DNA of 64,000 nt, from the NCBI RefSeq assembly GCF_000422445.1, contig NZ_AULU01000009.1:186001-250000 (forward strand). The letters run 5' to 3'. Positions 11,411 through 30,074 of the stretch are shown here, piece after piece (position 1 is the first letter of the stretch; each line of letters begins with the position of its first letter). The position numbers were made by a program, and so were the translations under genes. This DNA comes from Paenibacillus assamensis DSM 18201 (GTDB taxonomy: Bacteria; Bacillota; Bacilli; Paenibacillales; Paenibacillaceae). Under the pieces are notes generated by a model that was not told where the DNA came from, made no database searches, and saw only the letters and a list, made by a program, of their open reading frames with translations.

Positions 11411-11438
11411 TTGAATCGTATTGCGAAAGTGCTACAAT
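11411..11438 (+). promoter_or_regulatory. Sigma-A promoter of the FMN-lipoprotein gene
   Basis: TTGAAT (11411-11416), 16-bp spacer, TACAAT (11433-11438); the start codon is 78 nt downstream. Confidence 0.6.
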
Positions 11439-11516
11439 GGACTTGAAATTAGTAAGATATTTTTTTCACAAAGTAATAATAACTTAAATTTACAAATTAA
11501 AAAGGTGGGGGAAATC

Positions 11517-12020
11517 ATGAAAAAACTTTCATTGATCCTTGCAGTAACTATGGCATTTGGTTTACTCGTTGGTTGTGGCGCGAAAGAAGAAGCGAAAGAC
11601 GCGGCTCCTAAAACAGAAACAACAGCTCCAGCTACAACCGAACAACAAGCAGCGTACAAAGACGGCTCTTATCGTGCTGAAGGCAAAGAATTCGATGCCA
11701 AATCCGGCTGGAAAGGCACTGTAGAAGTTACCGTTAAAGACGGTAAAATTGCAACTGTAAACTGGGATGCAGTCCATAAAGATGGTGGAGACACGAAAAA
11801 AGTCCAATCTCAAGATGGCCGCTATGACATGGTAAAAGGCGGAGGCAGTTCGCATTGGCATGAGCAAGCTGCATCGATGGAGAAAGCACTTATTGAGAAG
11901 CAAGATCCAGCAGCTATCGTGTTAAAAGAAGACGGTAAAACAGATGCAGTAACAGGCGTGTCGATTCACGTATCTGAGTTCGTTCAATTGGCTCAAGAGG
12001 CTCTTGCAAGCGCGAAATAA
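11517..12020 (+). CDS. FMN-binding lipoprotein (PplA-like), candidate extracellular electron carrier
   Basis: About 167 residues. Signal peptide with lipobox LLVGC, a Thr/Ala/Glu-rich linker of about 25 residues, then one FMN-binding-type domain (YKDGSYRAEGKEFD ... WKGTVEVTVKDGKIATVNWD). Near the C-terminus DAVTGVSIHV occupies the place of the DxxSGAT flavinylation motif, to which ApbE/FmnB enzymes attach FMN through Ser or Thr. In Listeria, PplA is the flavin lipoprotein that receives electrons from Ndh2 through quinone and passes them outside; here the gene directly precedes an Ndh2-like gene. ATG 11517 follows AAAGGTGGGGG; the longer frame from 11421 lacks an SD. Confidence 0.8.
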   Translation: MKKLSLILAVTMAFGLLVGCGAKEEAKDAAPKTETTAPATTEQQAAYKDGSYRAEGKEFDAKSGWKGTVEVTVKDGKIATVNWDAVHKDGGDTKKVQSQDGRYDMVKGGGSSHWHEQAASMEKALIEKQDPAAIVLKEDGKTDAVTGVSIHVSEFVQLAQEALASAK

Positions 12021-12038
12021 TGAAATGCTAGTCATGAG

Positions 12039-12118
12039 ACAGCTCCGCTGTAGAGAAAGCACGTATGGATCTCACATTTTGTGGAGTCCTCCCCTTTTCT
12101 GCAGCGGAGCTCCCTTTT
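12039..12118 (+). terminator. Hairpin with T-run between FMN-lipoprotein and ndh genes
   Basis: Arms CAGCTCCGCTG and CAGCGGAGCT, followed by CCCTTTTA. It may reduce read-through, giving more of the lipoprotein than of the dehydrogenase. Confidence 0.6.
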
Positions 12119-12212
12119 ACGTATAGATTGATTTAAATTTGAACCTTTCCACTATATCACTAGCATGATAAGTCCAATTGGACACTAAACATTTTAGGGG
12201 TGACCAAATACC

Positions 12213-14090
12213 ATGAAGAAAATCGTTGTACTCGGTGGCGGTTATGGTGGTGTCTTAACAGCGAAAAAGCTGGCGAAGCGTTTAGCGAAGCATAAAGACG
12301 TTAGCATTACACTTATCGACCGCCATCCATACCATACGATGATGACGGAGCTGCATGAAGTAGCAGCGTGTCGTGTTGATGAAGAAGCGATCAAGATGGA
12401 TCTGAAGCAGATCTTTGCAGGACGTAAAGTTGATGTCGTATTAGATGAAATTAAAAAGATCGACTTTGATGGCCAATCGCTAAAAGGAAGCAAGAAAACG
12501 TATGACTACGACTATCTTGTTATCGGTACCGGCTGTAAGCCTACATTCTTCGGCATTCCAGGTGCTGAAGAGCATGCAATGACACTATGGTCGTTCGATG
12601 ATGCCGTGAAATTGAAGCGCCAAATTCGCGATATGTTCAACCTTGCTTCGAAAGAGCTAGATGAAGAGAAACGCAGACAGATGCTGACGTTTGTCGTCGT
12701 TGGAGCAGGCTTTACAGGTATTGAGCTAATTGGTGAAATTGCAGAATATCGTGATGAGCTATGCCACGAATATCATATCGATCCGAAAGATGTGCGACTC
12801 GTCGTAGCCGATATGGCACCGAAGATTCTGCCTATTTTGCCGGACAAGCTTATTAAGAAGTCTGAGAAGTATTTGCAAAAAATGAACGTGGAAATGATTA
12901 CGAGTGCGAAGATTACAGGCGTGACGGAGAACTCTGTCGTGCTTGGTGATAAAGGCGAACTGCAAGCACAGACAATCGTCTGGACTGCTGGCGTGGAAGG
13001 TTCGGAACTAGTTGGTAACCTTGATGTACAGCAAAATGGCCGCAAGCGTATCGTCACGAATGACAAGCTGCAATCGGCTGATCATAAAAATGTATACGTT
13101 GTTGGTGACAACATCTTCTATGTGCCAGAAGGCGAAGAACGTCCTGTACCGCAAATGGTTGAAAATGCAGAGCACTCTGCTACACTAATCGCTCACAACA
13201 TTACGGCCGATATTAAAGAAACAGGTAAGTACAAATCTTACAAACCTACGTTCCATGGTACGATGGTATGTATCGGTGGACGATATGGGGTTGCCGCTAT
13301 TGGCACACCGAAGAAAATGTTCCATTTCACAGGCTTTATGGCGATGTTCTTCAAGCATATGATTAATATCGTCTACTTCCTGCAAGTGCTTGGCTTCCAT
13401 AAAGTTTGGTCTTATAAAATACATGAGTTCTTTAAAGTGAAAAATAAGCGCAGCTTCGTAGGCGGACATCTCGCGATGCGTTCACCGAACTTCTGGCTCG
13501 TTCCACTTCGTATTTTCCTAGGCTTCAAATGGTTAAGTGAAGGTTTGGCGAAGCTTCCTAAAGTGTTGGAAAATCCATCGAACATCTTCTTAATTCCGCC
13601 AAAAGCAGCCGATGGAACGACAGGTGCTTCACAAGCAATTGAAGCTGTTCAGCAAACCGTTGACGGGCATACCGCTGCTTCTTCCGTCCAAACAGCAAAG
13701 ACAGCTGTTGAAGCGATTCCGGTTCCGGATTTCCTCAAGAGCATGGTCGACGGAAGTATGGATATGTTCTTCTACACAGCGGATGGAGGATACACGGCGT
13801 TAGCGTCTATTTTCCAAACGGGAATGGTGTTCGCAGAAATTATTTTCGGGGCAATGCTAATCCTAGGCTTGTTCACATCGCTAGCGTCGCTTGGCACAAT
13901 TGCAATGGGCGTTATGATCTATACATCAGGTATGGCACCATTTGAAATGCTGTGGTATTTCTTCGGTGGTATCGCTCTCATTGGCGGCTCAGGCAGCACA
14001 CTTGGCCTCGACTACTACTTGTATCCGCATCTCAAACGAATTTGGAAGAACATACCTTTCGTAAAAAAATGGTACCTTTACACGGACTAA
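12213..14090 (+). CDS. ndh2: Type II NADH dehydrogenase with C-terminal membrane domain (Ndh2, EET type)
   Basis: 625 residues, much longer than the ~400 of ordinary NDH-2. The N-terminal two-thirds is a pyridine nucleotide-disulfide oxidoreductase: FAD site VVLGGGYGGVLTAKK at residue 4, NADH site FVVVGAGFTGIELIGE near 160, and a third flavin motif NVYVVGDN near 300. The extra C-terminal part holds several membrane helices (GFKWLSEGLAKLP, GMVFAEIIFGAMLILGLF) of DoxX-like character. This fusion is the hallmark of the Ndh2 that feeds demethylmenaquinone in flavin-based extracellular electron transfer of Listeria. Neighbouring FMN lipoprotein and prenyl synthase genes agree. Good SD (AGGGGTG) before ATG. 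Confidence 0.88.
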   Translation: MKKIVVLGGGYGGVLTAKKLAKRLAKHKDVSITLIDRHPYHTMMTELHEVAACRVDEEAIKMDLKQIFAGRKVDVVLDEIKKIDFDGQSLKGSKKTYDYDYLVIGTGCKPTFFGIPGAEEHAMTLWSFDDAVKLKRQIRDMFNLASKELDEEKRRQMLTFVVVGAGFTGIELIGEIAEYRDELCHEYHIDPKDVRLVVADMAPKILPILPDKLIKKSEKYLQKMNVEMITSAKITGVTENSVVLGDKGELQAQTIVWTAGVEGSELVGNLDVQQNGRKRIVTNDKLQSADHKNVYVVGDNIFYVPEGEERPVPQMVENAEHSATLIAHNITADIKETGKYKSYKPTFHGTMVCIGGRYGVAAIGTPKKMFHFTGFMAMFFKHMINIVYFLQVLGFHKVWSYKIHEFFKVKNKRSFVGGHLAMRSPNFWLVPLRIFLGFKWLSEGLAKLPKVLENPSNIFLIPPKAADGTTGASQAIEAVQQTVDGHTAASSVQTAKTAVEAIPVPDFLKSMVDGSMDMFFYTADGGYTALASIFQTGMVFAEIIFGAMLILGLFTSLASLGTIAMGVMIYTSGMAPFEMLWYFFGGIALIGGSGSTLGLDYYLYPHLKRIWKNIPFVKKWYLYTD

Positions 14091-14125
14091 TCCGTAGTAA
14101 TTAGTATATTCATTTATATAGGAGC

Positions 14126-14157: not shown

Positions 14158-14183
14158 CTTATTTTATCGGGAGGCGGGGGATC

Positions 14184-14666
14184 ATGATAACGCAATTCAT
14201 TCAAGACATGTATGAACAACTAGAGCGAGAGCTTCCACAACAAGCCGGCATACAGCTCAACGCAGATCTATACAACATAAGACTTCAAGACATGGCCGTT
14301 CGCTTGCATCATGTTGAAATGGCTCATAAAGAACGACTAGCATTGCTTGGCTGCTATGCACTTGTCCTTCTTTCCTTGCGGATTCATGATCAACTTCCTA
14401 CCGACCCAGCAGCTGCTGGACGTTCTGTGCTGGATGGAGACTTTATTATGAGTTTCTATTTGCAGTTCGCCCTGCGCCATGGATTCATCGACTTGATTGC
14501 CGAGCTCGCCCCTGTCATTAAGCAAGTACAGATTAAGCGTGCTGAGCGCAAGCAAACGGATGAAGCCCACATTCACAAACAAACCGTAAAATATATAACT
14601 AAACGATATAAGAAACTGTATCCATTGACTCAAACGTTTAAGCAGGTGACGTATGACGTTGTCTAA
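14184..14666 (+). CDS. Heptaprenyl diphosphate synthase component I-like protein (HepS-like)
   Basis: 160 residues, soluble and helical. The segment VLDGDFIMSFYLQFALRHG matches the VLAGDYxSGLYY region of the small regulatory subunit of two-component heptaprenyl diphosphate synthases, and the gene overlaps by 14 nt the start of the large catalytic subunit. The small subunit sets the chain length of the prenyl product. No methyltransferase gene (menG) lies between the subunits, unlike the classic hepS-menG-hepT cluster, suggesting a dedicated copy for demethylated quinones as with DmkB of Listeria. GGGAGGCGGGGG is the SD. Moderate confidence, since the similarity is short. Confidence 0.6.
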   Translation: MITQFIQDMYEQLERELPQQAGIQLNADLYNIRLQDMAVRLHHVEMAHKERLALLGCYALVLLSLRIHDQLPTDPAAAGRSVLDGDFIMSFYLQFALRHGFIDLIAELAPVIKQVQIKRAERKQTDEAHIHKQTVKYITKRYKKLYPLTQTFKQVTYDVV

Positions 14667-15648
14667 CTCTTCCCTATCCGACCAATTGCAAATTTCAATG
14701 AAGCAGATTAACCGTGATTTGGAGCGTATCGTCACGGCCGATCCTGATGTGGCATCCCGCTCTATTGTCAGAAAGAGCGTGCTGGAGCTCATTCGTTCTG
14801 GAGGCAAAAGGCTCCGCCCCATCATGGTTATCATCGGCAGCCGATTCGGAATTAAACCTGAGCGTACTAATGTATATCAACTAGCTGCTGTGTGCGAGTT
14901 CATTCATGCAGCCTCCCTTGTACACGATGATATTCTAGATCAAGCTGACACCCGCCGTGGTCAGCCTTCCTTACACAAAACAACAAACGTACAAACAGCC
15001 GTACAGGTTGGTAATTATATGATGAGCCGCGTATTGGAACTGCTGTCTGCTCGAACGAAGGATCGTGACCGTAACATTGATGAGCTTGCTTCTTTAACAA
15101 CGACGCAATTGTGTCTAGGCGAGTATCAGCAGATGGATAATCGTTATAATTTTGACCTCACCTTGGAACAATATTGGGAGAAGACACGAAATAAAACAGC
15201 AATACTTATGGCTACCTCGCTGCATCTAGGAGCTAGAGCAAGTGAAGCCGATGAAGAAGTAGCTAAGCAGCTGTACGAATTCGGTGATCAACTCGGCATG
15301 GCGTTCCAGGTGCGAGACGATGTGCTCGATCTGCAGCAGTCGGCAGAAGCACTCGGCAAGCCAGCAGGAGCTGATTTGCGCAATGGACAAGTTACCCTAC
15401 CAGTACTACTGGCCATGGAGGAACCTGCTATTGAAAGCCATTTACGCAAGCTGCACGAAGGAGCGCCCGATCAGCTCTTCGATGAAGCGATCAAGCTCAT
15501 TCGAAACAGCGGCGCAATAGAACGAGCATTAGAAGTAAGCCACACCTTTATGCAGCGCGCATGGGATATTACCGAACAGCTAGCTGACTATCCCGCTCAT
15601 CGAGACTTGCAAACGTTGTGGCATTATTTTGAGAAGCGTACGTATTAA
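14653..15648 (+). CDS. Polyprenyl diphosphate synthase (HepT/DmkB-like)
   Basis: 331-residue trans-isoprenyl diphosphate synthase. First aspartate-rich motif LVHDDILDQADTRRGQPS, GGKRLRP substrate-binding segment, lysine-containing KTAILMATS, and second aspartate motif QVRDDVLDL are complete. It condenses isopentenyl diphosphate into the long prenyl tail of menaquinones. Its position after ndh2 and a HepS-like subunit suggests it makes the tail of the quinone used by this electron-transfer chain. Start overlaps the preceding gene, with SD AGGTGA. A hairpin terminator follows. Confidence 0.85.
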   Translation: MTLSNSSLSDQLQISMKQINRDLERIVTADPDVASRSIVRKSVLELIRSGGKRLRPIMVIIGSRFGIKPERTNVYQLAAVCEFIHAASLVHDDILDQADTRRGQPSLHKTTNVQTAVQVGNYMMSRVLELLSARTKDRDRNIDELASLTTTQLCLGEYQQMDNRYNFDLTLEQYWEKTRNKTAILMATSLHLGARASEADEEVAKQLYEFGDQLGMAFQVRDDVLDLQQSAEALGKPAGADLRNGQVTLPVLLAMEEPAIESHLRKLHEGAPDQLFDEAIKLIRNSGAIERALEVSHTFMQRAWDITEQLADYPAHRDLQTLWHYFEKRTY

Positions 15649-16995: not shown

Positions 16996-17322
16996 CTAGG
17001 TCTCACCGATCACACGATTCAACGAAACTTGGAACAGCTTCCACTCCTCTGTTTTTTCTTGAAGCTGCTTTTTCCCTTTATCGGTAATGTAATACGTCTT
17101 GCGAGCCCGGCCCTCTGCTTCACTCCATATCGCTTCCACATGACCTTCATTCTCCAATGCATGAAGTATGGGATACAGCGTTCCTTCTTTCAATGCAAAT
17201 ACTCCATTCGATTGAGCATCCAACCGCTTAATGAGCTGATAACCATACATCGGCTGCTGCTCCAACATGGAAAGCACGAGCATAACTGTGCTCCCCTTGA
17301 GCATTTCTTTGCTCACTTTCAT
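16996..17322 (-). CDS. PadR family transcriptional regulator
   Basis: 108 residues with the PadR winged helix: LVLSMLEQQPMYGYQLIKRL, then EGTLYPILHALENEGHV and RKTYYITDKGKKQL. PadR proteins repress adjacent genes and respond to envelope stress or small phenolics. Starts 3 nt after the stop of the upstream SEDS-type gene, so both are one transcript. The pairing of a PadR regulator with a HAAS-type membrane protein is common in Bacillota and suggests the regulator controls its own operon. Confidence 0.88.
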   Translation of the reverse strand: MKVSKEMLKGSTVMLVLSMLEQQPMYGYQLIKRLDAQSNGVFALKEGTLYPILHALENEGHVEAIWSEAEGRARKTYYITDKGKKQLQEKTEEWKLFQVSLNRVIGET

Positions 17323-17325
17323 CTA

Positions 17326-18696
17326 TCATCTTCCTTTCCCAATTACAACTGTCCTATCCCATCTAGCTTCATGTTGAGGGAGAGTGTCTTTACGCATATA
17401 AATATTCGTACATATGCCAAGCGCAAACATCCATATGAGCATTGAATTGGCACCATAGCTTAATAGCGGCAAAGTCGCCCCATTCATAGGAACTGCACCA
17501 ATTAGCCCACCTATATTGAATATAACAGGGATTGTAACATAGCAGCTAATGAATAACATTAAGCCTCTCCCAAAACGCTGCTTTACTTGATACGAAGAAC
17601 GGAACAGCCAAGTCAATCCTCCAAGTAAGGCCACCAGTACTCCTAACCCAACAATCCAGCCGAATGCATAAACAATAACGACTAATATATGATCAGAATG
17701 GGGATATGGAATATCCGCTCGTTCAACCCATCCTTTTCCCCACCAACCTGCTTGTACAAATAAATCCTGCAAATGATAGAGTAACGCTGATGCATCCCTC
17801 GTATGATGACCTAGCAAATGGTTTCCCCACGCTTCTAACCTCTCAATCTGTATTTGGTAAGATGGTAAACTTAGAAATGCCAGCACGCCTATCGTTATTG
17901 CAGTAATTGCCCCAATCATTAGAGCTTTCAAAGAAAACGAATGTATGAACAATATCAGAATGAAGCCCAGTAAATAGACAACGACTGCATAATATTGTGA
18001 ACTGATAACAAAGGTGAGAACCGGAATAATCCCAATGAACGGAAGAACCAGCTCCCTTCTAATACTAAGCTCAGGATACTCGGCACGATATTGTGAAATG
18101 ATTAAAAAGATTGCAAATAAAAATAAAAAGGTCGTCAGAAATCCAACATCCAATGCAATAGCACCGATAGCAATCCAATATCCCGTTCCATTTACCTCAT
18201 CCCCTATTAATTGTCCAGAGCCGAATAAACCTGTTGCAGTCACATATAGCAACCATCCTTTATTGCGCCACCAACGATAATCGATTAATGAGGCAATAAT
18301 GAATATAACAAGTCCAAAGCCTAGAAAAACAAGGTGTCTATCCAACAAGCTCCTTACCGCATAATTACCATTCACGGTATGTTGAACCGCCCAAATACCC
18401 AATGTACTTACAAGCAATAAAATAGCGATCATGCCCCAAAACAACCATGGGAACCGTGTTCGATGCACGATATTAAACTTCTCTGCTATCGTATTTACGG
18501 ATCCCATATGTCTAATCGCAGTCGCTTCGGCTTTAGAACGAGACATCCCTTTGTCCATTTGCTCCTCGACCTGATTGTACAGATGATCCTCCAGCTCTGC
18601 TCGTATGCTGGCTCTCATTTCTTGCGCATGAATCCCTGCCTCTACTTGATCCACAAAAGAATCTAATAAAGAGCGTTTATTCTCTTCTCGATCCAT
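17326..18696 (-). CDS. HAAS-domain fused SEDS (FtsW/RodA/SpoVE-like) membrane protein
   Basis: 456 residues. Residues 1-80 are a soluble HAAS/permease-prefix helix-rich module (SFVDQVEAGIHAQEMRASI, then SRSKAEATAIRHMGS). Residues 85-440 form about ten membrane helices typical of SEDS glycosyltransferases, with the extracellular PYPHSDHILVVI segment at the position of the catalytic Asp loop and a C-terminal GNxxGxxPxxGxxLPxxSYG-like motif (MNGATLPLLSYGANS). SEDS proteins polymerise peptidoglycan glycan strands. The PadR partner gene suggests conditional expression, for example under cell-wall stress. SD AGGAGG. Confidence 0.8.
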   Translation of the reverse strand: MDREENKRSLLDSFVDQVEAGIHAQEMRASIRAELEDHLYNQVEEQMDKGMSRSKAEATAIRHMGSVNTIAEKFNIVHRTRFPWLFWGMIAILLLVSTLGIWAVQHTVNGNYAVRSLLDRHLVFLGFGLVIFIIASLIDYRWWRNKGWLLYVTATGLFGSGQLIGDEVNGTGYWIAIGAIALDVGFLTTFLFLFAIFLIISQYRAEYPELSIRRELVLPFIGIIPVLTFVISSQYYAVVVYLLGFILILFIHSFSLKALMIGAITAITIGVLAFLSLPSYQIQIERLEAWGNHLLGHHTRDASALLYHLQDLFVQAGWWGKGWVERADIPYPHSDHILVVIVYAFGWIVGLGVLVALLGGLTWLFRSSYQVKQRFGRGLMLFISCYVTIPVIFNIGGLIGAVPMNGATLPLLSYGANSMLIWMFALGICTNIYMRKDTLPQHEARWDRTVVIGKGR

Positions 18697-19104: not shown

Positions 19105-20154
19105 TTACTCTACCCAAGTCCCTGAACACATTTCCGCCGTAAAACCTGGTCCGAATGCGGCTAATAACCCTTTATCCCCAGGCGAGCACGTTCCCGCTTC
19201 GAATAGACGAGCTAATACATCAAAAACAACAACGCTGGATAGGTTCCCACACTCTGCTAAGCTCTCTCTACTCAAACCGACACGCTGCTCTGCAATACCA
19301 AGATGCTTCACCAGCTCATCTAATATGCGCCGCCCCCCTGTATGGAATACGAAGAAATCAAGATCGGATGGTGTCCGCTGAACCGTCTCTTCCACAAATT
19401 CGCGCATAACAGGAGCCACCGTCTCAATCGTATACATGACCTGCTTGTCCAGCACAAAATGAAATCCGGTGTCTTTCATGTCATAGGCGATATAGTTCTC
19501 CGTATGCTTAATCAAATAAGAGGCATTCGACTCTACCTGAAATCCTATTCCTGCCGTACTTTTCATAACACAAGCAGACACGCTGTCTCCGAATAAAGCA
19601 GCCGATACAAAGTCAGAGATCGCACGCTCAGCAGGCTGGAAGCAAAGTGAGCACAATTCTGCGCTTACGATAAGGACGTTGGCACCAGGGAAGGCTTCGC
19701 AATATTCAGCAGCACGATTAATCGCAGATGCCCCAGCAGCACAACCAAGCTGTGCAATAGGAAGCTGTTTTGTTTGTTCACGGAATGGCAAATCACTTAT
19801 GAGGTAGGCGGTTAAGGAAGGCATCATAAATCCGGTACAAGATGTCACAATGATGAGGTCAATTTGAAAAGCTTCTAGTTCAGCATTCTCCAGCGCTTGC
19901 TCAACAGCTTGGACACTAAGCCGTCTCATTTCTTCTTTGTAAATAAGGCTGCGCTCTTCAAAACGAGAATGTGCAATAATCTCTTCGATGGGACGGACGA
20001 TATACCGCTCATTCACTTGTGTGTTGCGAAGCATACGGTTAATTTTGCTCCAGTCGGGATGATTGGGATGGAGCTGGTGGAGCATATCCACCATTTCATC
20101 TTGCGTAATGCGATAAGGTGGTCGTACGATAGCTGGCTTCGTTAATATACCCAT
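19105..20154 (-). CDS. Type III polyketide synthase (chalcone/stilbene synthase family)
   Basis: About 349 residues. The thiolase-fold catalytic triad is present: Cys in QLGCAAGASAINRA (near residue 145), His in FVFHTGGRRIL (near 280) and Asn in ECGNLSSVVV (near 310), with GFGPG-loop counterpart AAFGPGF near the end. The enzyme condenses malonyl-CoA units onto a starter CoA and cyclises them, giving pyrones, resorcinols or naphthalene-like products. The usual partner genes (methyltransferase, P450) are missing; instead a UbiA prenyltransferase lies upstream on the same strand. Start ATG 20154 has GAGGTGA at 6 nt; GTG 20163 lies too near the SD. Confidence 0.85.
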   Translation of the reverse strand: MGILTKPAIVRPPYRITQDEMVDMLHQLHPNHPDWSKINRMLRNTQVNERYIVRPIEEIIAHSRFEERSLIYKEEMRRLSVQAVEQALENAELEAFQIDLIIVTSCTGFMMPSLTAYLISDLPFREQTKQLPIAQLGCAAGASAINRAAEYCEAFPGANVLIVSAELCSLCFQPAERAISDFVSAALFGDSVSACVMKSTAGIGFQVESNASYLIKHTENYIAYDMKDTGFHFVLDKQVMYTIETVAPVMREFVEETVQRTPSDLDFFVFHTGGRRILDELVKHLGIAEQRVGLSRESLAECGNLSSVVVFDVLARLFEAGTCSPGDKGLLAAFGPGFTAEMCSGTWVE

Positions 20155-21508: not shown

Positions 21509-22835
21509 CTTCCGTCCCCCTCTCTTCATCGGCATAAACCGCTTCAGAGAGAACTTCATCTAGCACCGAGAGCATCGCATCGATCTCCGCTTCTGGCATG
21601 ATAAGCGGAGGCTGGAAAGCGAGGACGTTGCGCCCGACACCATTTTTACCAATCAAATAGCCGCGATTTTTCATCTTCTCCAGCACACGATCCGTCAAAG
21701 CTGCATGTAATGACGCATTACCGGTATTTAGCTCGGCTCCTACCATAAGCCCTTTGCCGCGCACATCTGCAATGCAACCGTGCTTGACTTGGAGTGCACG
21801 TAGTCCATCTTTCAGTTGATTACCCAACTCGGCGGAGCGCGCTACAAGCTGCTCCTGCTGAATATAATCCAACACCGCCATGGCCGTAGCAGCAGAGACA
21901 GGATTACCACCAAATGTCGAAGCAGATGGACGATTAAAACTGACTGCAATTGCGTCTGTCGTAGCAAAAGCTCCGATTGGCACACCGTTGCCAAGTGCTT
22001 TCGCCATCGTAATGATGTCTGGCGCAACCCCATAATAGTCCATCGCGAACATACGCCCCGTGCGACCGAAGCCAGTCTGGATTTCATCTGCGATGAGCAA
22101 GATCCCGTACTCTGCAAGCAATGCTTTCATTTCGCGGAAATACCAGTCAGGTGGGACGATCATCCCTCCATTGCCTTGAATCGGCTCCACGATCATGGCA
22201 GCAAATGTATCGCCCTTTTCCCCAAGCACCTTTCGCAGCGCCTCAATGGAACGATGAGCTGCATCTTCCACGTCTAGCTCTTCATCGTAAGGACGAGGAA
22301 TAAAGGTAACATGCGGGTCGAGGTAATCATCCGTTCGCCACATTGGCATCCCTGTGACTCCCATCGTGAGGAACGTTCTACCGTGCAGGCCGTACTCCAG
22401 CGCAAGGAAGTCTTTGCGCTTCGTATGCAGCCTTGCCAACAGCAAAGCCCCTTCATTTGCTTCAGAGCCGCTATTGCAGAAGAACGTTCGCTTCAACTCA
22501 CCTGGCAAGCATTCATTCGCCAACCGCTCTGCTAGTTGAACCATGGGCTCTGTTAAATAAATGGTCGTCGTGTGCTGCAGCTTGGTTAATTGCTCTGTCG
22601 TCTTAGATGTAATCTGCTCGTTGCAATGTCCGCAAGCAACGACGGATACACCTGCAAAGAAATCTGTATATATCTTACCTTCATGATCAATAAGCTGATG
22701 CATGCTTCCCTGCACGATTTGTGGCGGGTCTTCGTAAAAATGATGGGTACAAGGAAAGAAATATTGTTTACGCTTCTCTAGCACTTTTTCTGGACCTATA
22801 TAGGTTGTTGGATGCATTGTTGTCACGCTTGTCAT
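21492..22835 (-). CDS. Class III aminotransferase
   Basis: 447-residue PLP enzyme. The cofactor site is intact: PFYNSG-type segment FFCNSGSEANEGAL, Asp in LIADEIQTGFGRTG, and Lys in ITMAKALGNGVPIGAF. It belongs with alanine-glyoxylate / aspartate aminotransferase-annotated class III proteins; the amino donor and acceptor cannot be deduced. It overlaps the UbiA gene and follows the U32 gene on the same strand, so it may share their operon. SD GAGGTGA at 8 nt from ATG 22835. Confidence 0.85.
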   Translation of the reverse strand: MTSVTTMHPTTYIGPEKVLEKRKQYFFPCTHHFYEDPPQIVQGSMHQLIDHEGKIYTDFFAGVSVVACGHCNEQITSKTTEQLTKLQHTTTIYLTEPMVQLAERLANECLPGELKRTFFCNSGSEANEGALLLARLHTKRKDFLALEYGLHGRTFLTMGVTGMPMWRTDDYLDPHVTFIPRPYDEELDVEDAAHRSIEALRKVLGEKGDTFAAMIVEPIQGNGGMIVPPDWYFREMKALLAEYGILLIADEIQTGFGRTGRMFAMDYYGVAPDIITMAKALGNGVPIGAFATTDAIAVSFNRPSASTFGGNPVSAATAMAVLDYIQQEQLVARSAELGNQLKDGLRALQVKHGCIADVRGKGLMVGAELNTGNASLHAALTDRVLEKMKNRGYLIGKNGVGRNVLAFQPPLIMPEAEIDAMLSVLDEVLSEAVYADEERGTEDGRDS

Positions 22836-22948: not shown

Positions 22949-24949
22949 CTACGCATTCGTGCTTATCAGCTCCATATGGCGAGCCGCTCCGAACTGCAAG
23001 CTTCCTAGCGTATAGCCTGCATAAACAGGATTCATCTGAGCGAATAAAATACTGCATTGATCCAAGTGATCCGCTGCTTGACGGTATGTGCGTACAATGG
23101 TCCGCAGCTGCTCGTCCGTATATGTCTTGCCTTCAATTCGGAAATGACGGACCCCTGCTTCATACAACTCTTTCATCATCGGCAAATAGCACAATTCTTT
23201 GGACAAAGCGAGATGATTGCGTCCGCTCCAATCCCGATAGACCGGACTTTCTCCTTTGTCCGTCATAAGGACAAGGTATTGATTGTCCACATAAGCGTTA
23301 TCCTCTTGGCCAATCGACTCCATCACTTCTGTATTTTCATAGAGATCAAGCTCCAAATACATCACAATCGGCGAGCCATGAACCGTCATCTCCACGGGTA
23401 CTTTTGTATGCTCAATGAAGTTCGCCAAATCATGGAGCGGCAGCTCCATCGAAGCGTGAACCCGCTCCACGCCGAAATACTTTTCATACACAGCAGCAGA
23501 CATGTAGTTGTACACATTCAAATTAGCATCGCCAATCATAGGTAGCCCTAACTCTAATGAACCAAACTTATGCAGCGCACCGAAGTTAGATACAAGCAAG
23601 CCATCCAGCCCATACATCCCTCTTTGCTTTCCTTGCTGCAAGAAGTGCGTATACTGCTCCATATGAAGCTCCGTCATCATCCGAGGTGTGCCTAGAATAA
23701 TTTGCGACGCGCCTTTAGATGCAGTTAGCCGTTCTATATCTTCAAGACTGTATGGACGATCTGGCATGTATACATCACCAGTCAAATAGATGATATCTGC
23801 TCCTTCTTCAAGCGCTGCATGTGCCTGCTGTACATTGTTGACATGTACAGCAATCTGGGGCAGAGCCTGCTTAGAAGTGTGATCGATATCTCTTTTTGCA
23901 TCAGCAAGACGCTCCCGAATTTGCGTAACACGCTCTTCTTTCAGCTCACGTTCAGCGGCAGGTGTACTGAACACCTTCCCTGTACTGTAGAACTTCCCTG
24001 TCCCTTCATATCGTCTATTAATATAGCTAAGACCAGGCTTGCCAAATGCATAGGCGGTTGAAAAATCTCGCTTCCGATTGTCATACAGCTTGTCCGCATT
24101 CTCCGTGCGGTTAAAGCCAATCGGGTCAGCTATATAACGATCAATCGCATCCCCATATTGATTGACCAACAAGTTCAAAAACTCGATATCACGCATTCTG
24201 CCTTCAATTTTGAATGACATAATGCCTGACTTGATCAGTTCTGGAATATGCTCATACATGTACATGTCTTTCGCTGCAAGAGGATATTCTGTCGGGTAAA
24301 TATGCCCGTCCTTCTTTACGCGATAATCCCAACGACAAGGCTTCATACAGCGTCCACGCTGAGCACTGTTACCAAAAATCATCGAGCTAATCGTACAATT
24401 CGCACCGTGAACCGTGCACATGTCGCCATGAACAAAGTATTCGAACTCCATCCCGCTTTTCGCTTGCAACAGCTCTGCTGTATTCAGATCCATCTCACGA
24501 GATGCAACAACCCGAGTTACGCCAAACTTCTTTATCGCTTCGATCATTTCCAAATTGTGAATGTTCATCATGACAGAAGAATGCACAGGTATATTTGTAT
24601 AGTTCTGCTCGTGAATCAATGGAAATACCGCCATATCCTGCGCAATAATCGCATCGGGGCCAACCTCATTTAGAAATTCGAAATAGCGCTTCGCCTCATC
24701 CAAATCTTCTTCGTTTAATAAATTGTTCACGGTAACATACGCACGCTTGCCTCGATCATGTGCCATTTGAATAGCTTCGCGAACTTCGTCATAGGACAAA
24801 TTGTATCCTTTGCGCATCATCCGCATATTGAGCGATGGTCCACCGAAGTACACCGCATCACAGTTCATATCAATAACCTCTTGGAAAATAGGAAACGTTC
24901 CCGCAGGAGCCAACAACTCTATCTCTTTACCGTTGAAATATCTAGCCAT
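22949..24949 (-). CDS. Peptidase U32 family protein
   Basis: 666 residues. The U32 signature FVHGDMCTVHGANCTISS (near residue 170) with further Cys in GRCMKPCRWDY shows the four-Cys set that binds an iron-sulfur cluster in UbiU/UbiV, RlhA and TrhP. Members act as O2-independent hydroxylases of quinones or RNA rather than as proteases. The size fits the two-domain RlhA-like group. Its place next to an aminotransferase and a prenyltransferase makes a role in anaerobic quinone hydroxylation conceivable, but an rRNA/tRNA role is equally possible. SD GGGGAGGA. Confidence 0.8.
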   Translation of the reverse strand: MARYFNGKEIELLAPAGTFPIFQEVIDMNCDAVYFGGPSLNMRMMRKGYNLSYDEVREAIQMAHDRGKRAYVTVNNLLNEEDLDEAKRYFEFLNEVGPDAIIAQDMAVFPLIHEQNYTNIPVHSSVMMNIHNLEMIEAIKKFGVTRVVASREMDLNTAELLQAKSGMEFEYFVHGDMCTVHGANCTISSMIFGNSAQRGRCMKPCRWDYRVKKDGHIYPTEYPLAAKDMYMYEHIPELIKSGIMSFKIEGRMRDIEFLNLLVNQYGDAIDRYIADPIGFNRTENADKLYDNRKRDFSTAYAFGKPGLSYINRRYEGTGKFYSTGKVFSTPAAERELKEERVTQIRERLADAKRDIDHTSKQALPQIAVHVNNVQQAHAALEEGADIIYLTGDVYMPDRPYSLEDIERLTASKGASQIILGTPRMMTELHMEQYTHFLQQGKQRGMYGLDGLLVSNFGALHKFGSLELGLPMIGDANLNVYNYMSAAVYEKYFGVERVHASMELPLHDLANFIEHTKVPVEMTVHGSPIVMYLELDLYENTEVMESIGQEDNAYVDNQYLVLMTDKGESPVYRDWSGRNHLALSKELCYLPMMKELYEAGVRHFRIEGKTYTDEQLRTIVRTYRQAADHLDQCSILFAQMNPVYAGYTLGSLQFGAARHMELISTNA

Positions 24950-24975
24950 AATCGTTCCTCCCCATCCTCATTAAC

Positions 24976-24992
24976 GTGAACATTTTCACAAA
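24976..24992 (-). promoter_or_regulatory. Fnr/Rex-like box upstream of the U32 gene
   Basis: Minus strand TTGTGAA-AATG-TTCACG, close to the Rex consensus TTGTGAA-N4-TTCACAA and also to an Fnr TGTGA-N6-TCACA site. Its centre is about 33 nt before the start codon, a position that suits repression. Confidence 0.5.
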
Positions 24993-25104: not shown

Positions 25105-25902
25105 CTACATCACAAAAGTGAAGACAAGCATCGCTGCAAAGCCGATAAGAAACAGCGAATCGATTCGCCTCCACTTCAACATACGAAGTGAAGTCCGTGC
25201 TCGATCCAGCACATATCCCCTCGACTCCATCGCATGCACCAAGTCTTCCGCTCTGCGAAAAGCCCCTACAATAATCGGAATGAGCAGGGTCAGCAGCATC
25301 TTCCCTTTTGCCGCAAACTTCAAATCGTTAATATCTGCTCCACGGGATGCTTGGGCCTTTAATATACGATCCGCTTCCTCAAATATCGTCGGGATAAACC
25401 GCAACGCGATCGTAATCATCATCGTCCACTGCTGTGGAGAAACACCGACAAGCTTAAGCGGCTTCAATACTGCCTCAAGGCCAAGATTCAATTCGATCGT
25501 TGTCGTCGTAAAGGTTAGAATCGACGTAAAGCACACCAGCAGCAGCATGCGCCATACGGCTGATAGCCCTAGTAATATACCCTCGCGGCTAACTTGGAAG
25601 CTGCCTATTTCAAACCATACGCTGCCACCCTGCTCAAACAGCGTATAGAACAAAAACATAAAAAACATAAGCGGCCATAGCGGCTTGGAAGCCCGACCAA
25701 AGCGGGATAACGGAATGCCTGAGCTTGCTAAAATAAGCAAGGCGATTGCGGTTATCGCAATCAGCTCTACGATTGAATGAGCGCTAATAACAGCGGCTAG
25801 AAACAGCAGCATCGCTACTAGCTTCGCACGCGGATCTAATCGATGTACCCATGACGAAGCGTCTATATAGCGGCCCATCACCAGCTTAGATGACCTAATC
25901 AT
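25105..25902 (-). CDS. ecfT: ECF transporter transmembrane component EcfT
   Basis: 265 residues, five to six membrane helices, with the CbiQ/EcfT pattern: a WVHRLDPRAKL motif near the N-terminus and the two Ala-Arg-Gly coupling helices (ASRGADINDLKF, MESRGY). It joins two ATPases and an S component to import vitamins. It overlaps ecfA2 by ATGA. In this cluster the S-like partner could be the EetB-like protein at 27775, or a RibU/FmnA encoded elsewhere. Confidence 0.85.
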   Translation of the reverse strand: MIRSSKLVMGRYIDASSWVHRLDPRAKLVAMLLFLAAVISAHSIVELIAITAIALLILASSGIPLSRFGRASKPLWPLMFFMFLFYTLFEQGGSVWFEIGSFQVSREGILLGLSAVWRMLLLVCFTSILTFTTTTIELNLGLEAVLKPLKLVGVSPQQWTMMITIALRFIPTIFEEADRILKAQASRGADINDLKFAAKGKMLLTLLIPIIVGAFRRAEDLVHAMESRGYVLDRARTSLRMLKWRRIDSLFLIGFAAMLVFTFVM

Positions 25903-26963
25903 CGTTCTTCCACCCCTCTAGGAAGATGCAGAGCACGATACGCACTTTCACTTCCCCCCGTTACCGCATAGTAAACATTAGCCTCTGGCTCTGTTGATTG
26001 CTTGGATTGATACCGTTGAAGCAGCTTTTCCCTGCTAACGCTAGCAGACAGGGCTTGCTCTCCGTGTTGTTCCTGCTCACGCATCTGACTCATCTCAATC
26101 AGTCGTTCTGCCCATTCACTGGCCGTAACGGGCATTTCTTGCCCCTGTACTTCCAATCCACAGCGCTGTCCTCTGCATCGCTCTCCCACCAACTGCCCAA
26201 GCCGCAATGCGGCAGGCAAAACGACTCCAGCGTCTTGCAGTTGCAATGGCTGTGCCAGCAGCTCAGCTCGACTACCTTGAAAGACGATTCGTCCAGCCTT
26301 CATTAACAGATAGTGGCTCGCAACAGGCAGCACTTCATCGAGCCGATGCGTAACGACCACAACCGTCTTACCTTGCTCGACTGTAAGCCGGTGCAAGAGG
26401 TCGAGCAGTTCGGTTCTACTAAGCGGATCGAGCGTAGCAGTCGGCTCGTCCAACACGAGCAAATCTGGATTGGATGCCAGCACAGCTGCAATGGCCGCCT
26501 TGCGCATCTGTCCGCCGCTGAGCTGGAAGGGGTTCATCGTGAGCACAGCTTCAGGCAGTCCCACCTTGCGCAGGGCCCCCCAAGCCGCTTGACGTGCCTC
26601 CTGCTCAGACATGCCAAACTGCAAAGGGCCAAACATAAGGTCCTGCTCCACCGTATCTGCGAACAGTTGCTGCTCAGGGAATTGGAAGACGAGCCCGACT
26701 CGTTTGCGCAGCGGCTTTAGCCCTTTTTGCTTTATCCCAGCCTCGAACGTCATATCCAGCACACGAAGTCGCCCCGTGGTCGGCTGGAAAATACCGTTTA
26801 TGTGCTGCAGCAAGGTCGACTTGCCGGAGCCAGCAGCACCAAGAATCGCATAGAATTGTCCTTGTTCCCATTCGAAGCTAATATCCTTAAGCGCAAACGA
26901 TGGTTCACTGCCACCGTTAGCAACATATTGATAACTTAATTTTTCACTGGACACGATGGCCAT
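25899..26963 (-). CDS. ecfA2: ECF transporter ATPase EcfA2 with C-terminal extension
   Basis: 354 residues; the usual length is near 290. Walker A GAAGSGKST, signature LSGGQMRKAAIA, Walker B LLVLDEPTATLDP and switch His VVTHRLDE are all present. The last about 75 residues are polar, with repeated Glu/Gln, and do not resemble the normal C-terminus. Overlaps ecfA1 by 28 nt and ecfT by 4 nt, so the three subunits are translationally coupled. Confidence 0.85.
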   Translation of the reverse strand: MAIVSSEKLSYQYVANGGSEPSFALKDISFEWEQGQFYAILGAAGSGKSTLLQHINGIFQPTTGRLRVLDMTFEAGIKQKGLKPLRKRVGLVFQFPEQQLFADTVEQDLMFGPLQFGMSEQEARQAAWGALRKVGLPEAVLTMNPFQLSGGQMRKAAIAAVLASNPDLLVLDEPTATLDPLSRTELLDLLHRLTVEQGKTVVVVTHRLDEVLPVASHYLLMKAGRIVFQGSRAELLAQPLQLQDAGVVLPAALRLGQLVGERCRGQRCGLEVQGQEMPVTASEWAERLIEMSQMREQEQHGEQALSASVSREKLLQRYQSKQSTEPEANVYYAVTGGSESAYRALHLPRGVEER

Positions 26964-27769
26964 AGTGCATTCACCAACTCTTCCTCATCCCGGCATATAT
27001 CTACATCAACACCACGACGCCTTAGCTCTAGCGATAACTCTACAGCAAATGGCGGACGTAAGCGGCATTCCTCCATCAGCTCTTCCCGCGCGAACAGCTC
27101 CATCGGTGACAAATCAGCTACCAACTGGCCATCCTTTACAACAAGAACTCGATCCGATGCCATAATTTCTTCCGCATCATGCGTCACTGATACAATGGTA
27201 AACCCTCTTTCAGCACGCAATTGCCGCATATGAATCATACACTCTCGCCTTGCCTGCTCATCTAACATCGACGTCGCCTCATCCCAAATCATGACTTCCG
27301 GATTTAGCACAAGCAGCCCAGCAATCGCAACGCGCTGTTTCTGTCCCCCAGACAAGGAAGATGGATGGCGACCCAACCAATCTCGAATACCTAGCTCAAC
27401 CGACACCTGATCGATCCTCCGCTGCATTTCTGCTTGCGGCAAACAGCGGTTCTCCATTCCAAATGCCATATCATCTTGCACCGTATTCGCTATAAACTGA
27501 TTATCTGGGTTTTGAAATAAGTAGCCGACTCGTCCACGTATATCACTAACCGTATGGCCATCCAGCTTTACACCGCCGATCTGAATCGTGCCTGACTGCG
27601 GCACAAGCAAGCCATTCATCAGCTTCGTCAATGTCGATTTGCCAGAACCATTCGGACCTACAATGGTTACCCATTGTCCCTGTTCGATATGAAAGGACAA
27701 GTCTGTAAACATTGGCTCACCCTTCGAATACTGAAAAGCCACTTGATTGAATCGTAGGATAGCTGCCAC
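26936..27769 (-). CDS. ecfA1: ECF transporter ATPase EcfA1
   Basis: 277 residues. Walker A GPNGSGKST, Q-loop LFQNPDNQF typical of ECF ATPases, signature LSGGQKQRVAIAG, Walker B VMIWDEATSMLD. Begins with GTG 27769 shortly after AAAGGCG, the SD being unusually close, so initiation may depend on coupling to the upstream EetB-like gene, whose stop is 5 nt away. With EcfA2 it forms the motor of an energy-coupling factor transporter. Confidence 0.85.
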   Translation of the reverse strand: MAAILRFNQVAFQYSKGEPMFTDLSFHIEQGQWVTIVGPNGSGKSTLTKLMNGLLVPQSGTIQIGGVKLDGHTVSDIRGRVGYLFQNPDNQFIANTVQDDMAFGMENRCLPQAEMQRRIDQVSVELGIRDWLGRHPSSLSGGQKQRVAIAGLLVLNPEVMIWDEATSMLDEQARRECMIHMRQLRAERGFTIVSVTHDAEEIMASDRVLVVKDGQLVADLSPMELFAREELMEECRLRPPFAVELSLELRRRGVDVDICRDEEELVNALWPSCPVKN

Positions 27770-27774
27770 CGCCT

Positions 27775-28347
27775 TTACTGCATTTCTGGTGCAAATGGTT
27801 CAAACAACGACAGCTTGGAAAGTGAGGCAACCACGTATTTCACAGCGATTCCGATAAAGATACCGGTCACAATTCCGAGCAGCATTAAGGCTGGAAGATA
27901 GTAATAGATCTTGGTTGTTTGAAAAACAATATACGCCGCCGTTAATTGCCCCACATTATGCGCTACGCCGCCCATTACACTAATTCCGATGAGACTAAGA
28001 CGACCTCGCCCGATTCGGATAAGACCGTACATAACAATGAAGCTAAACAGCGCACCTAGAAAGCTAAATAAAAACGCGGAAAACGCACCGTATATCAAAG
28101 TCATAATTAAGGCTTTCAATATAACTAGCGCCATCGAATCTCGCCAAGACAGGAAGCATAAGCAAGTCAGAACCATAATATTGGCTAGACCTAGCTTGGC
28201 ACCTGGAATCATCATAAACATTTGTGTCGGGAGCATCGCTTCTACTAATCCCAGAACAGCAGCTACTGCCGCAAATATGGCAATGATGACCGTCTTCCTT
28301 AACTTAAGCGATGAAGAGACCGAGGAATCGTTAGCTGACAACCGCAT
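27775..28347 (-). CDS. eetB: Gx transporter family / EetB-like membrane protein
   Basis: 190 residues, about five membrane helices. It fits the family formerly annotated heptaprenyl diphosphate synthase component I (Hpre_diP_synt_I), now called Gx transporter, which resembles ECF S components: note LPTQMFMMIPGAKLGLANIM and GGVAHNVGQL. In Listeria the protein of this family, EetB, is encoded with EetA and needed for extracellular electron transfer. Here it overlaps the EetA-like gene and leads into ecfA1. Its substrate is unknown. SD GAGGAGA. Confidence 0.8.
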   Translation of the reverse strand: MRLSANDSSVSSSLKLRKTVIIAIFAAVAAVLGLVEAMLPTQMFMMIPGAKLGLANIMVLTCLCFLSWRDSMALVILKALIMTLIYGAFSAFLFSFLGALFSFIVMYGLIRIGRGRLSLIGISVMGGVAHNVGQLTAAYIVFQTTKIYYYLPALMLLGIVTGIFIGIAVKYVVASLSKLSLFEPFAPEMQ

Positions 28348-28723
28348 CTAGTTCACTCTCCTCTGCTTGATCCGTTTTCAGTTCCACAAGCACGCGATGC
28401 GGCAGACAAACAATGGTATCTCCTTTGCGATTCACAAAGCCAAAGGACAAGCACACTTGATCAGGACAATCCGCCTCAATCATTTCGATTCCATAGTTAT
28501 GAACTTTCAAAATATTTGTACCGTGATCAGTCGGCACTGTAATTATTTGCTCTTCTTCGGTTAGCGTTACTGTCTTAAACAGCTTGCCATCGACCGTAAT
28601 CTCTGCTGTCATTGTATTATTGTGATTATTTTCACTTGAGTTCTGAATCAACCACTTAGGAATAAAAAATGCAAGAGCAGCCACAATGACGAGGCAGATT
28701 ACTACTACATCCCCGCGTTTCAT
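28331..28723 (-). CDS. eetA: NusG domain II protein, EetA-like
   Basis: About 130 residues: an N-terminal membrane helix (VVVICLVIVAALAFFIP) followed by an extracytoplasmic NusG_II-type beta domain (AEITVDGKLFKTVTL, then NILKVHNYGIEMIEADCPDQVC and IVCLPHRVLVEL, with two conserved Cys). EetA of Listeria has this layout and is required for EET, possibly by placing flavin outside the membrane. I set the start at ATG 28723; the ATG at 28732 abuts AAGGAG with no spacing. First gene of the eetAB-ecf operon. Confidence 0.82.
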   Translation of the reverse strand: MKRGDVVVICLVIVAALAFFIPKWLIQNSSENNHNNTMTAEITVDGKLFKTVTLTEEEQIITVPTDHGTNILKVHNYGIEMIEADCPDQVCLSFGFVNRKGDTIVCLPHRVLVELKTDQAEESELDAVVS

Positions 28724-28790
28724 ACCTAGCATCTCCTTAAGCTCTTAAATAACAATCTATAAAATTTTAATGATTATAAATTTCAATATT

Positions 28791-28819
28791 ATTATACTGC
28801 CACCTCATTTTTCGTTCAA
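28791..28819 (-). promoter_or_regulatory. Sigma-A promoter of the eetAB-ecfA1A2T operon
   Basis: Minus strand TTGAAC (28814-28819), exactly 17 bp, TATAAT (28791-28796). Confidence 0.75.
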
Positions 28820-28839
28820 TGTTGACGGCTTGGACAAAT

Positions 28840-28881
28840 GCCAGAAAAACCCTTATGCAGCGGGATTTTGGCTGTTTTTTT
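28840..28881 (+). terminator. Terminator-like hairpin upstream of the ApbE gene
   Basis: GCCAGAAAAACCC / GGGATTTTGGC pairing followed by seven T on the plus strand. No plus-strand gene precedes it, so it may insulate the divergent promoters or act as a leader element. Confidence 0.4.
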
Positions 28882-28914
28882 GTGATAAACTTCCTAGGCA
28901 ATGCATCTTCATTC

Positions 28915-28923
28915 TGATATAAT
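28915..28923 (+). promoter_or_regulatory. Extended -10 promoter of the ApbE gene
   Basis: TG-A-TATAAT at 28915-28923 with no good -35; extended -10 promoters tolerate that. Confidence 0.45.
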
Positions 28924-28988
28924 GTTGTGCTAAAAGACAGGCAGATCGTACAAGCCTTAACCTATGGACAGATTACGGAGGGACAACT

Positions 28989-30074
28989 ATGAGAGGAATA
29001 CGCTCGATGAAACTTCCACGCTGGGCTTACATTGTTGCAGTGGCGCTATCCATCACGATGTTGGCAGTAGGATGTGGTTCACCATCATCTGATTCTAAAC
29101 AGGTGCAGCAGCCAACGATTCAATCCAAGTCCTACTTTATATTTGATACCATGGTTACGGTGAAATTATACGATGATCCTGCTTACGCGCAACATTTTGA
29201 ACATATTTTGAACATTATGAAAGACATCGAAAGCAAGATGAGCCGTACGCTGGAAACAAGCGAACTGTACAAGCTGAACACCCATGCTGGCAAAGGCCCT
29301 TATCAAGTTTCTGATGAAACTTTCATGGTTATCGAGAAGGCATTGGACTATGCGGAGAAAACGAATGGACGCTTTGATCCAACGATAGGACCGCTCGTTA
29401 GTTTATGGGGGATCGGTACCGAACAAGCCCGTGTACCAGCTCAGGCGGAAATTGATGAAGCACTCAAGCTAGTTGGCTATGACACAGTAACGCTTGATGC
29501 TGCCAACAAAACGGTGTCCATGGCGAAGCCCGGCATGGAGTTGGACTTGGGCGGCATCGGCAAAGGATATGCAGCTGACGCTATTGTCGATTACATTCGT
29601 GAACAAGGCGTAAAGAGCGCCATTATTGACTTAGGCGGTAACATTTATGCAGTTGGTACCAAGCCAGCCGGATTCGATTGGACGATTGGCGTGCAAGATC
29701 CGAATGAGACGCGCGGCAATCAGATCGGTACGATGAAAATAAAGGATCGCACCATTGTGACCTCCGGCGTGTATGAACGTTATTTGGAGCATAATGGGCA
29801 ATACTATCATCATATTCTCGATCCGAAGACAGGCTACCCTGCTAAGAGCAATCTAAACAGTGTTACTATCGTAACGGATCGCTCTACGGATGCCGATGCG
29901 CTGTCGACATCTGCCTTCGCGCTTGGCGTTGAAGAAGGGATTGCCTTCATTGAAGCGAAGCCGAATGCCGAAGCTATTTTTATAACAGAAGACAAGCAAG
30001 TATATACCACGTCAGGCATCCCCAGCTTTTTCACCCTGACGGATGATGCATATAAATATAAGTTCAACAAGTAA
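28989..30074 (+). CDS. FAD:protein FMN transferase (ApbE/FmnB), lipoprotein
   Basis: 361 residues. Signal peptide with lipobox LAVGC, so it works outside the membrane. ApbE features: FIFDTMVTVKLYD near the start, LWGIGTEQARVP, ELDLGGIGKGYAADAIVDYI, LGGNIYAVGTK and the Mg2+/FAD site DPKTGYPAKSNLNSVTIV ... TDADALSTSAFALG. It splits FAD and links FMN to Ser/Thr in SGAT-like motifs of exported proteins. Candidate targets in this window are the lipoproteins at 11517 and 33316. In Listeria the same enzyme (FmnB) matures PplA. SD GGAGGGA; ends before a strong terminator. Confidence 0.92.
   Translation: MRGIRSMKLPRWAYIVAVALSITMLAVGCGSPSSDSKQVQQPTIQSKSYFIFDTMVTVKLYDDPAYAQHFEHILNIMKDIESKMSRTLETSELYKLNTHAGKGPYQVSDETFMVIEKALDYAEKTNGRFDPTIGPLVSLWGIGTEQARVPAQAEIDEALKLVGYDTVTLDAANKTVSMAKPGMELDLGGIGKGYAADAIVDYIREQGVKSAIIDLGGNIYAVGTKPAGFDWTIGVQDPNETRGNQIGTMKIKDRTIVTSGVYERYLEHNGQYYHHILDPKTGYPAKSNLNSVTIVTDRSTDADALSTSAFALGVEEGIAFIEAKPNAEAIFITEDKQVYTTSGIPSFFTLTDDAYKYKFNK

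Follow-up and report, generated by a model that had tools for sequence, protein, structure and literature searches.

A flavin-based extracellular electron transfer island with a candidate quinone module of its own in Paenibacillus assamensis

A stretch of 64,000 nucleotides of Paenibacillus assamensis DSM 18201 (contig NZ_AULU01000009.1, positions 186,001 to 250,000 of the forward strand; hereafter the window) carries what is, to judge from its sequence, a real gene island of the type that lets Gram-positive bacteria pass electrons outside onto iron or fumarate by flavin-based extracellular electron transfer (FLEET; EET, extracellular electron transfer). At the level of predicted proteins the presence of the FLEET gene set is confirmed, and the frames of the named genes are open and intact. 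The reading that we favour, with a probability of about 0.6, is a Listeria-like FLEET island that brings along a quinone supply of its own, dedicated to EET. FLEET in Paenibacillus has already been published, together with iron reduction and with dmkA elsewhere in the genome (PMC10373932, in the portions available), and the island as such is therefore of a known kind. What sets this island apart is a module made of a U32 protein, a class-III aminotransferase (AT3) and a second MqnP-type prenyltransferase (UbiA2), a three-gene set that probably makes a special electron carrier of its own.

An earlier note on this DNA had placed a near-complete Listeria-type island at 11411–30074. The gene set stands, as does the order of the three strand blocks (+, −, +), and their spread over about 18.6 kb is indeed unlike the compact Listeria locus; the end given for the island does not stand, the set running on to about 35.2 kb. 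Proteins were compared with those of the FLEET locus of Listeria monocytogenes (L251). The first block contains a PplA-type lipoprotein for flavin mononucleotide (FMN; 11517–12020, +), as had been described, 31% identical to each of the two domains of Listeria PplA. The solved structure 2kzx is the best PDB match of its domain (E 4e-33); the protein has no Pfam match at E 0.001 and reaches 51 bits with the PplA model NF041941, far below the cut-off of 325. It keeps the motif DxxTGVS, but is single-domain and has V where Listeria has A. A PplA devoid of the flavinylation residue was considered and dropped: because the last S/T of [S/T]GA[S/T] carries the modification (PMC8238504, as excerpted), the predicted site, Ser149 in DAVTGVS, fits as the modified residue, and like motifs are found in relatives. 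Ndh2 (12213–14090, +; PF07992), a type II NADH dehydrogenase with a C-terminal membrane domain, is 37% identical to Listeria Ndh2 over 628 aligned columns. Because its last 230 residues alone match Listeria Ndh2 (27–28%, E 2e-21), the foreign C terminus that would speak against FLEET is not found.

On the minus strand lie EetA (28331–28732; PF07009; 34% identical to Listeria EetA) and EetB, the energy-coupling factor (ECF) S component for the export of flavin adenine dinucleotide (FAD; 27775–28347; PF07456; 41%). In the same row are the ATPases EcfA1 (26936–27769; TIGR04520, 324.7 bits, above its cut-off of 315) and EcfA2 (25899–26963; TIGR04521, 294.6 bits, below its cut-off of 330), and EcfT, the counterpart of Listeria FmnA (25105–25902; 34%; PF02361, 147 bits). 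The ApbE/FmnB flavin transferase lipoprotein (28989–30074, +; PF02424) is 43% identical to Listeria FmnB and has 7esa as best PDB match (E 2e-86). The earlier note, which had named EetA, EetB, an ECF module and the FMN transferase, went astray in calling the RibU/FmnA S component missing, which mixed up the ECF subunits: in the FAD exporter, as described in passages of PMC9973259, EetB is the S component and FmnA the T component, found here at 25105. Since EetB, FmnA and their ATPases are all present, nothing is missing on the flavin side. RibU was dropped as a missing part, being dispensable for flavin export according to the same passages. No FMN riboswitch was found in the island; the two Rfam matches of the window are a thiamine pyrophosphate riboswitch (7378–7493) and a purine riboswitch (42992–43092).

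The family Paenibacillaceae was surveyed in 118 genomes, scored for long Ndh2 (a match spanning at least 574 of 625 residues), EetB, ApbE and UbiA2. Long Ndh2 was present in 45 genomes. EetB above its cut-off, and likewise ApbE at E 1e-85 or better, each occur in 44 of these 45 genomes and are absent from the remaining 73; the single exception for both is G010, whose Ndh2 lies at a contig end. In 40 of 44 genomes Ndh2 lies on the same contig as EetB, at a distance of 5.5 to 18 kb (median 11.6 kb). Seven genera (g1, g7, g9, g12, g16, g17 and g18) each include FLEET and non-FLEET members, so that the blocks come and go together. Within these 118 genomes the association of the FLEET genes is beyond chance. 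It makes very improbable the view that two unrelated systems happen to be neighbours, namely Ndh2-PplA and an EetAB-ECF-ApbE set serving only the fumarate reductase lipoprotein described below, a view that could appeal to the separate transcription blocks and to the position of apbE, which is next to eetA in certain genera and apart from eetAB in several others. In conclusion, FLEET is backed both gene by gene and by co-occurrence, and the first interpretation of a near-complete Listeria-like system is partly supported.

The real departures from Listeria, both unnamed in the earlier note, are the U32-aminotransferase-MqnP-type module in the place of DmkA and an adjoining fumarate reductase branch. 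Homologues of Ndh2, PplA, FmnA, FmnB, EetA, EetB and DmkB are common to both loci; besides its three-block layout and single-domain PplA, the island differs from L251 in having its own EcfA1A2 in the row and a HepS-like partner. The EET operon of Paenibacillus sp. Cedars likewise combines FLEET genes with ecfA1-ecfA2-ecfT, has dmkA elsewhere and goes with reduction of iron minerals, and the available text (PMC10373932) mentions no U32, aminotransferase or second MqnP module.

The module is encoded on the minus strand by UbiA2 (20633–21559, the true start probably lying further in), AT3 (21492–22835), an aminotransferase dependent on pyridoxal phosphate (PF00202, 335 bits), and U32 (22949–24949), a tandem TIM-barrel protein of 666 residues (PF01136, two stretches, 303 bits). 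The prenyltransferase at 20633 had been taken for the counterpart of Listeria DmkA. The dmkA gene lacks annotation in L251 (3758–4818), and the gap beside fmnA was taken as dmkA, its longest open piece being 167 residues; UbiA2 has no match to that piece at E 1e-4. As no MenA-type DmkA was found in the locus, the island is filed as a FLEET variant and not as the Listeria type itself. UbiA2 belongs to PF01040 and resembles the futalosine prenyltransferase MqnP in scoring above the cut-off of TIGR01475 (276 against 180.8 bits); like the housekeeping MqnP-type copy of the genome, to which it is 45% identical, it stays below the cut-offs of the named MqnP models. UbiA2 differs from MqnP in its separate clade, in its restriction within the family to genomes with long Ndh2 and in its tie to U32 and AT3.

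This tie was measured on 120 loci fetched in two sets, some genomes being present in both, of which 84 span the interval from HepT to EcfT and were counted, the 36 that do not span it being left out. UbiA2, AT3 and U32 are all found there in 76 loci and one or two of them in none, and the trio is thus all-or-none at 84/84 spanning loci; of the remainder, two have a MenA-like gene in this place and six have neither. Of the six empty loci, five belong to genomes in which U32-AT3-UbiA2 lie together at a different place (L077, L189, L190, L191 and L192); the sixth genome, G121, has no U32 match. Since the trio is all-or-none and stays together where relocated, the module seems to move as one. U32 was present in 47 of 55 genomes with long Ndh2, compared with 0 of 25 without it (80 genomes searched). 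UbiA2 was present in 40 of the 118 family genomes, all 40 with long Ndh2, and absent from 73/73 non-FLEET genomes. A MenA-like gene lies by EcfT in G016, G017, G052 and G072, all without the trio (the loci of G016 and G052 are non-spanning); it scores below the MenA cut-offs in the copy tested, that of G017. Despite this gene in their FLEET loci, no MenB was found at E 1e-30 in G016, G052 and G072 (L071, L070 and L068). These distributions argue against the alternative that the island is plain FLEET running on demethylmenaquinone or menaquinone, made by MenA from scavenged 1,4-dihydroxy-2-naphthoate (DHNA) or by the housekeeping route, with U32 and AT3 doing an unrelated job, for example RNA modification, and UbiA2 a spare MqnP; points on the side of this alternative are taken up below, and on balance we regard it as doubtful.

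In a tree of UbiA proteins (L043, L119 and L244, with incomplete sequences, left out), UbiA2 forms one clade (support 100/100) and the housekeeping MqnP-type copies another (100/100). A branch with support 100/99 joins UbiA2 with 17 of 23 UbiAs of U32-bearing genomes outside the family, a topology that fits a transfer of the module into the family. In a sample of 398 Bacillota genomes, 40 have a long U32; of these, three belong to this family and the others to different classes, and the nine sampled genomes from the same class but another family all lack it. At 38 U32 loci outside the family, AT3 adjoins U32 in 29 and a UbiA lies beside both in 14. One U32-bearing locus looked at was that of Petroclostridium (L194), from which the group might be guessed to be clostridial. 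In another, L199, the order is UbiD, UbiA, a UbiX-containing frame, U32 and AT3, and the UbiD scores above the cut-off of the menaquinone decarboxylase model. A UbiA-family gene was present in 38/38 genomes with long U32 (E 1e-46 or better) against 17/42 U32-negative ones (E 1e-40), the latter figure being an upper bound because PF01040 also catches heme O synthase; 24 of the 38 genes were compared with UbiA2 and were 33–54% identical to it. In the open-licence literature of PubMed Central no paper on a U32-aminotransferase-MqnP module was found; the part of PMC11707229 that came up merely names the U32 profile in its methods.

The U32 protein shares PF01136 and four conserved cysteines with the UbiU/UbiV and TrhP oxidases. 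Its cysteines (Cys178, Cys185, Cys201 and Cys205) are conserved in 124/124 sequences, duplicates included (L092 was left out of the alignment). It differs from these oxidases in the two barrels that its AlphaFold2 model places within one chain, and in its scores with the NCBIfam models, which reach none of their cut-offs of 534, 440 and 275 bits (TrhP 165, UbiU 159 and UbiV 53 bits). A PDB sequence search with U32 gave no match at E 0.001, and a fold search returned generic TIM barrels, the U32 protein 5d88 among them. According to excerpts of PMC11574389, U32 oxidases hydroxylate RNA and ubiquinone precursors without oxygen, the oxygen atom probably being taken from prephenate. AT3 matches many class-III enzymes of the PDB with no clear best substrate, and resembles acetylornithine and gamma-aminobutyrate aminotransferases and some racemases. 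That U32 and AT3 share a unit with a quinone prenyltransferase points to head-group chemistry as their possible role.

The organism probably makes its housekeeping quinone through the futalosine pathway. A housekeeping MqnP-type UbiA occurs in 117/118 family genomes, and the housekeeping cluster of this genome (L075) contains MenG, the MqnP-type UbiA, a UbiX-type protein and HepT above cut-offs, with two further frames that we take to be MqnA and HepS (no NCBIfam match at E 1e-10). MenB was not found in this genome at E 1e-30 and was above cut-off in 1 of 34 genomes searched (G017). With a housekeeping MqnP-type copy elsewhere in the genome, UbiA2 is an extra copy. The tail supply may be duplicated as well. 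The earlier note had placed a prenyl diphosphate synthase at 14184/14653, which holds for the second frame: the HepT/DmkB-like protein (14653–15648, +; PF00348) is 31% identical to DmkB (149 bits; DmkB has its closer match in the housekeeping HepT, with 194 bits) and scores 265 bits with TIGR02748, below the cut-off that the housekeeping HepT exceeds. It is, by these comparisons, a predicted paralogue of the housekeeping HepT. The first frame (14184–14666, +) is read as a HepS-like protein, the putative small partner in a prenyl diphosphate synthase of two subunits. Neither Pfam nor NCBIfam gives it a match at E 0.001; its AlphaFold2 model (mean pLDDT 86) has 9kp1_A, the heptaprenyl diphosphate synthase heterodimer of B. 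subtilis, as top fold hit at a weak E of 9e-3, with none below 0.001, and its LDGD motif is invariant in 13 sequences. Taken together, the modelled 14184 protein and 14653 resemble a further HepS/HepT pair.

Several observations weigh against an EET-dedicated quinone supply, and some of them are also what gives plain FLEET its plausibility. The genome has a MenA elsewhere (L076, 8530–9477; G000:C6, about 306.5–307.5 kb; 365 bits, above the NCBIfam cut-off), beside frames that presumably are cydABCD. At 41% identity to the open piece of Listeria DmkA it is the closest DmkA relative here, and it might serve EET. As no MenB was found, DHNA would need uptake, and a possible use of scavenged DHNA is suggested by the presence of this MenA. 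Excerpts of PMC9888254 report that Lactiplantibacillus plantarum uses added DHNA, and count its dmkA and dmkB among the genes that EET does not require, though with a minor drop in iron reduction, a caution that a locus may carry quinone genes it can do without; in Paenibacillus sp. Cedars, too, dmkA lies outside the operon. U32 scores alike with TrhP and UbiU, and the characterised U32 oxidases include RNA hydroxylases besides UbiU/V (PMC11574389, in part). Outside the family, U32-AT3 pairs occur without an adjacent UbiA at 15/38 loci and U32 without AT3 at 9/38; in the tree, 6 of the 23 outside UbiAs are placed on the side of the housekeeping copies, and there are several long-branched rows; PF01040 cannot separate MqnP from heme O synthase. 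The surveyed genomes are related, and the Fisher values for co-occurrence therefore overstate independence. Lastly, the window has five FNR-like sites, a number weakly above chance (2.23 are expected on average, and five are reached in 4 of 100 shuffles).

The genes beyond 30074 most likely form a second, fumarate-reducing branch, to judge from their similarities. They encode a DcuA/B-type C4-dicarboxylate carrier (30345–31685, +; PF03605, 505 bits), a small FMN_bind lipoprotein of 115 residues with the motif EALTGATKS (33316–33663, −; PF04205) and an FccA-type fumarate reductase flavoprotein with a lipobox (33771–35192, −; 1d4c, E 5e-154). The reductase aligns with 1d4c, a flavocytochrome c fumarate reductase, active-site stretches included (the His of QTHPT, the TE pair, the Arg of TRD, the His of VHHTMG and the Arg of NRLGGNA), residues to which we assign their catalytic roles by assumption. 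It shares the FccA-type catalytic domain with L. monocytogenes FrdA and Shewanella FccA, and with FrdA the FMN_bind link to the electron chain (PMC8238504, in part); unlike in these proteins, the FMN_bind domain and the reductase are here split into two lipoproteins, and there is no cytochrome domain. One could suppose that the island serves mainly extracellular fumarate respiration, reduction of iron or an anode being a side activity of PplA. The three genes adjoin apbE and come with a perfect FNR-like palindrome, the lipoprotein at 33316 is the only PF04205 match of the genome at E 0.001, and Listeria FrdA is flavinylated by FmnB, as stated in passages of PMC9973259. Against this supposition, G017 and G019 have the island and no PF04205 match, so that the fumarate branch is not a fixed part of it, and excerpts of PMC10373932 describe iron mineral reduction by Paenibacillus sp. 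Cedars; we therefore consider it unlikely, though worth keeping in mind.

Boxes of the type TGTGA-N6-TCACA, to which we give the name FNR/Crp-like by assumption, were scored over 10 consensus positions. The window has one upstream of pplA (11294–11309, +; 9/10 positions), one in the gap between EcfT and U32 (24975–24990, +; 9/10) and a perfect palindrome upstream of the fumarate reductase (35344–35359, +). For the following counts, identical upstream regions and hits beginning too far into the gene were left out. pplA is preceded by a box of at least 9/10 in 68 of 94 loci, non-identical ones that are related to each other, against 142 of 5040 random 300-bp windows. Upstream of the other genes it was found in 25/52 loci for EetB, 20/77 for U32, 8/42 for EetA, 6/29 for ApbE, 9/84 for AT3, 5/96 for Ndh2 and 1/72 for EcfA1, and in none for the HepS-like gene (81 loci), HepT (95), UbiA (86) and EcfT (80). 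A literature search on FNR boxes in Paenibacillus returned nothing useful. A further site lies at 28621–28636 inside the eetA coding region; like the boxes counted for EetB, which stand no more than 300 bp before the gene, it could reflect regulation or coding constraint. Another perfect palindrome (40092–40107) lies upstream of a protein (39177–40019) that is presumably a formate/nitrite transporter. General promoter and terminator scans of the window gave numbers near the shuffle means (33 against 36.3, and 22 against 18.1, respectively).

From these data we infer the following scheme for an EET island with its own quinone. Ndh2 would pass electrons from NADH to a membrane quinone, and the quinol would reduce the FMN lipoprotein PplA; on a second branch, the quinol would reduce the small FMN_bind lipoprotein and this in turn the surface fumarate reductase, which the Dcu carrier would feed. 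FAD would be exported by EetB-EcfT-EcfA1A2, and ApbE would attach FMN to the lipoproteins. The EET quinone would be synthesised by a branch separate from the housekeeping, probably futalosine, pathway: its tail would come from the HepS/HepT-like pair, UbiA2 would attach this tail, and the U32 iron-sulphur protein and AT3 would modify the head group or a precursor of it. An FNR-type regulator would switch the island on without oxygen.

The remaining genes between the blocks and beside the island are of a different sort from U32 and the aminotransferase, which recur with the island in most genera examined. The PadR regulator, the RodA protein, the type III polyketide synthase and a 207-residue protein are found at this place only within the own genus, with the exception of weak RodA/PadR pairs upstream in L129 and L140, and were dropped as island members. 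PadR and the RodA/FtsW-like protein, which has a permease prefix domain, are inserted in the island at 16996–18696, and weakly similar pairs occur in a few relatives. The polyketide synthase (19105–20163), beside UbiA2, has DpgA as best model, below its cut-off, and is present only in the nearest relatives (L035, L073 and L079–L081); the nearest named record among the fetched loci is Paenibacillus arenosi (L079), with 99% identity in the C-terminal region of Ndh2. Beyond the fumarate branch, at 35521–38999, a histidine kinase adjoins a polyprenyl synthetase-like protein, a pair that we take to resemble ComP and ComQ of quorum sensing.

Which quinone serves flavin-based EET is unsettled even for Listeria, for which a demethylmenaquinone has been proposed (PMC9094743, in part). 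In this locus a tail synthase, a prenyltransferase and two tailoring-type enzymes lie together, with the housekeeping genes elsewhere, which makes the quinone question directly testable. It is conceivable, if rather speculative, that UbiA2, U32 and the aminotransferase form an undescribed oxygen-independent pathway, acquired from other Bacillota, that would yield a hydroxylated and/or aminated prenylated naphthoquinone used solely for EET in Paenibacillaceae and, more generally, in U32-bearing anaerobes. The locus also hints at a new role for U32 oxidases, outside ubiquinone and RNA.

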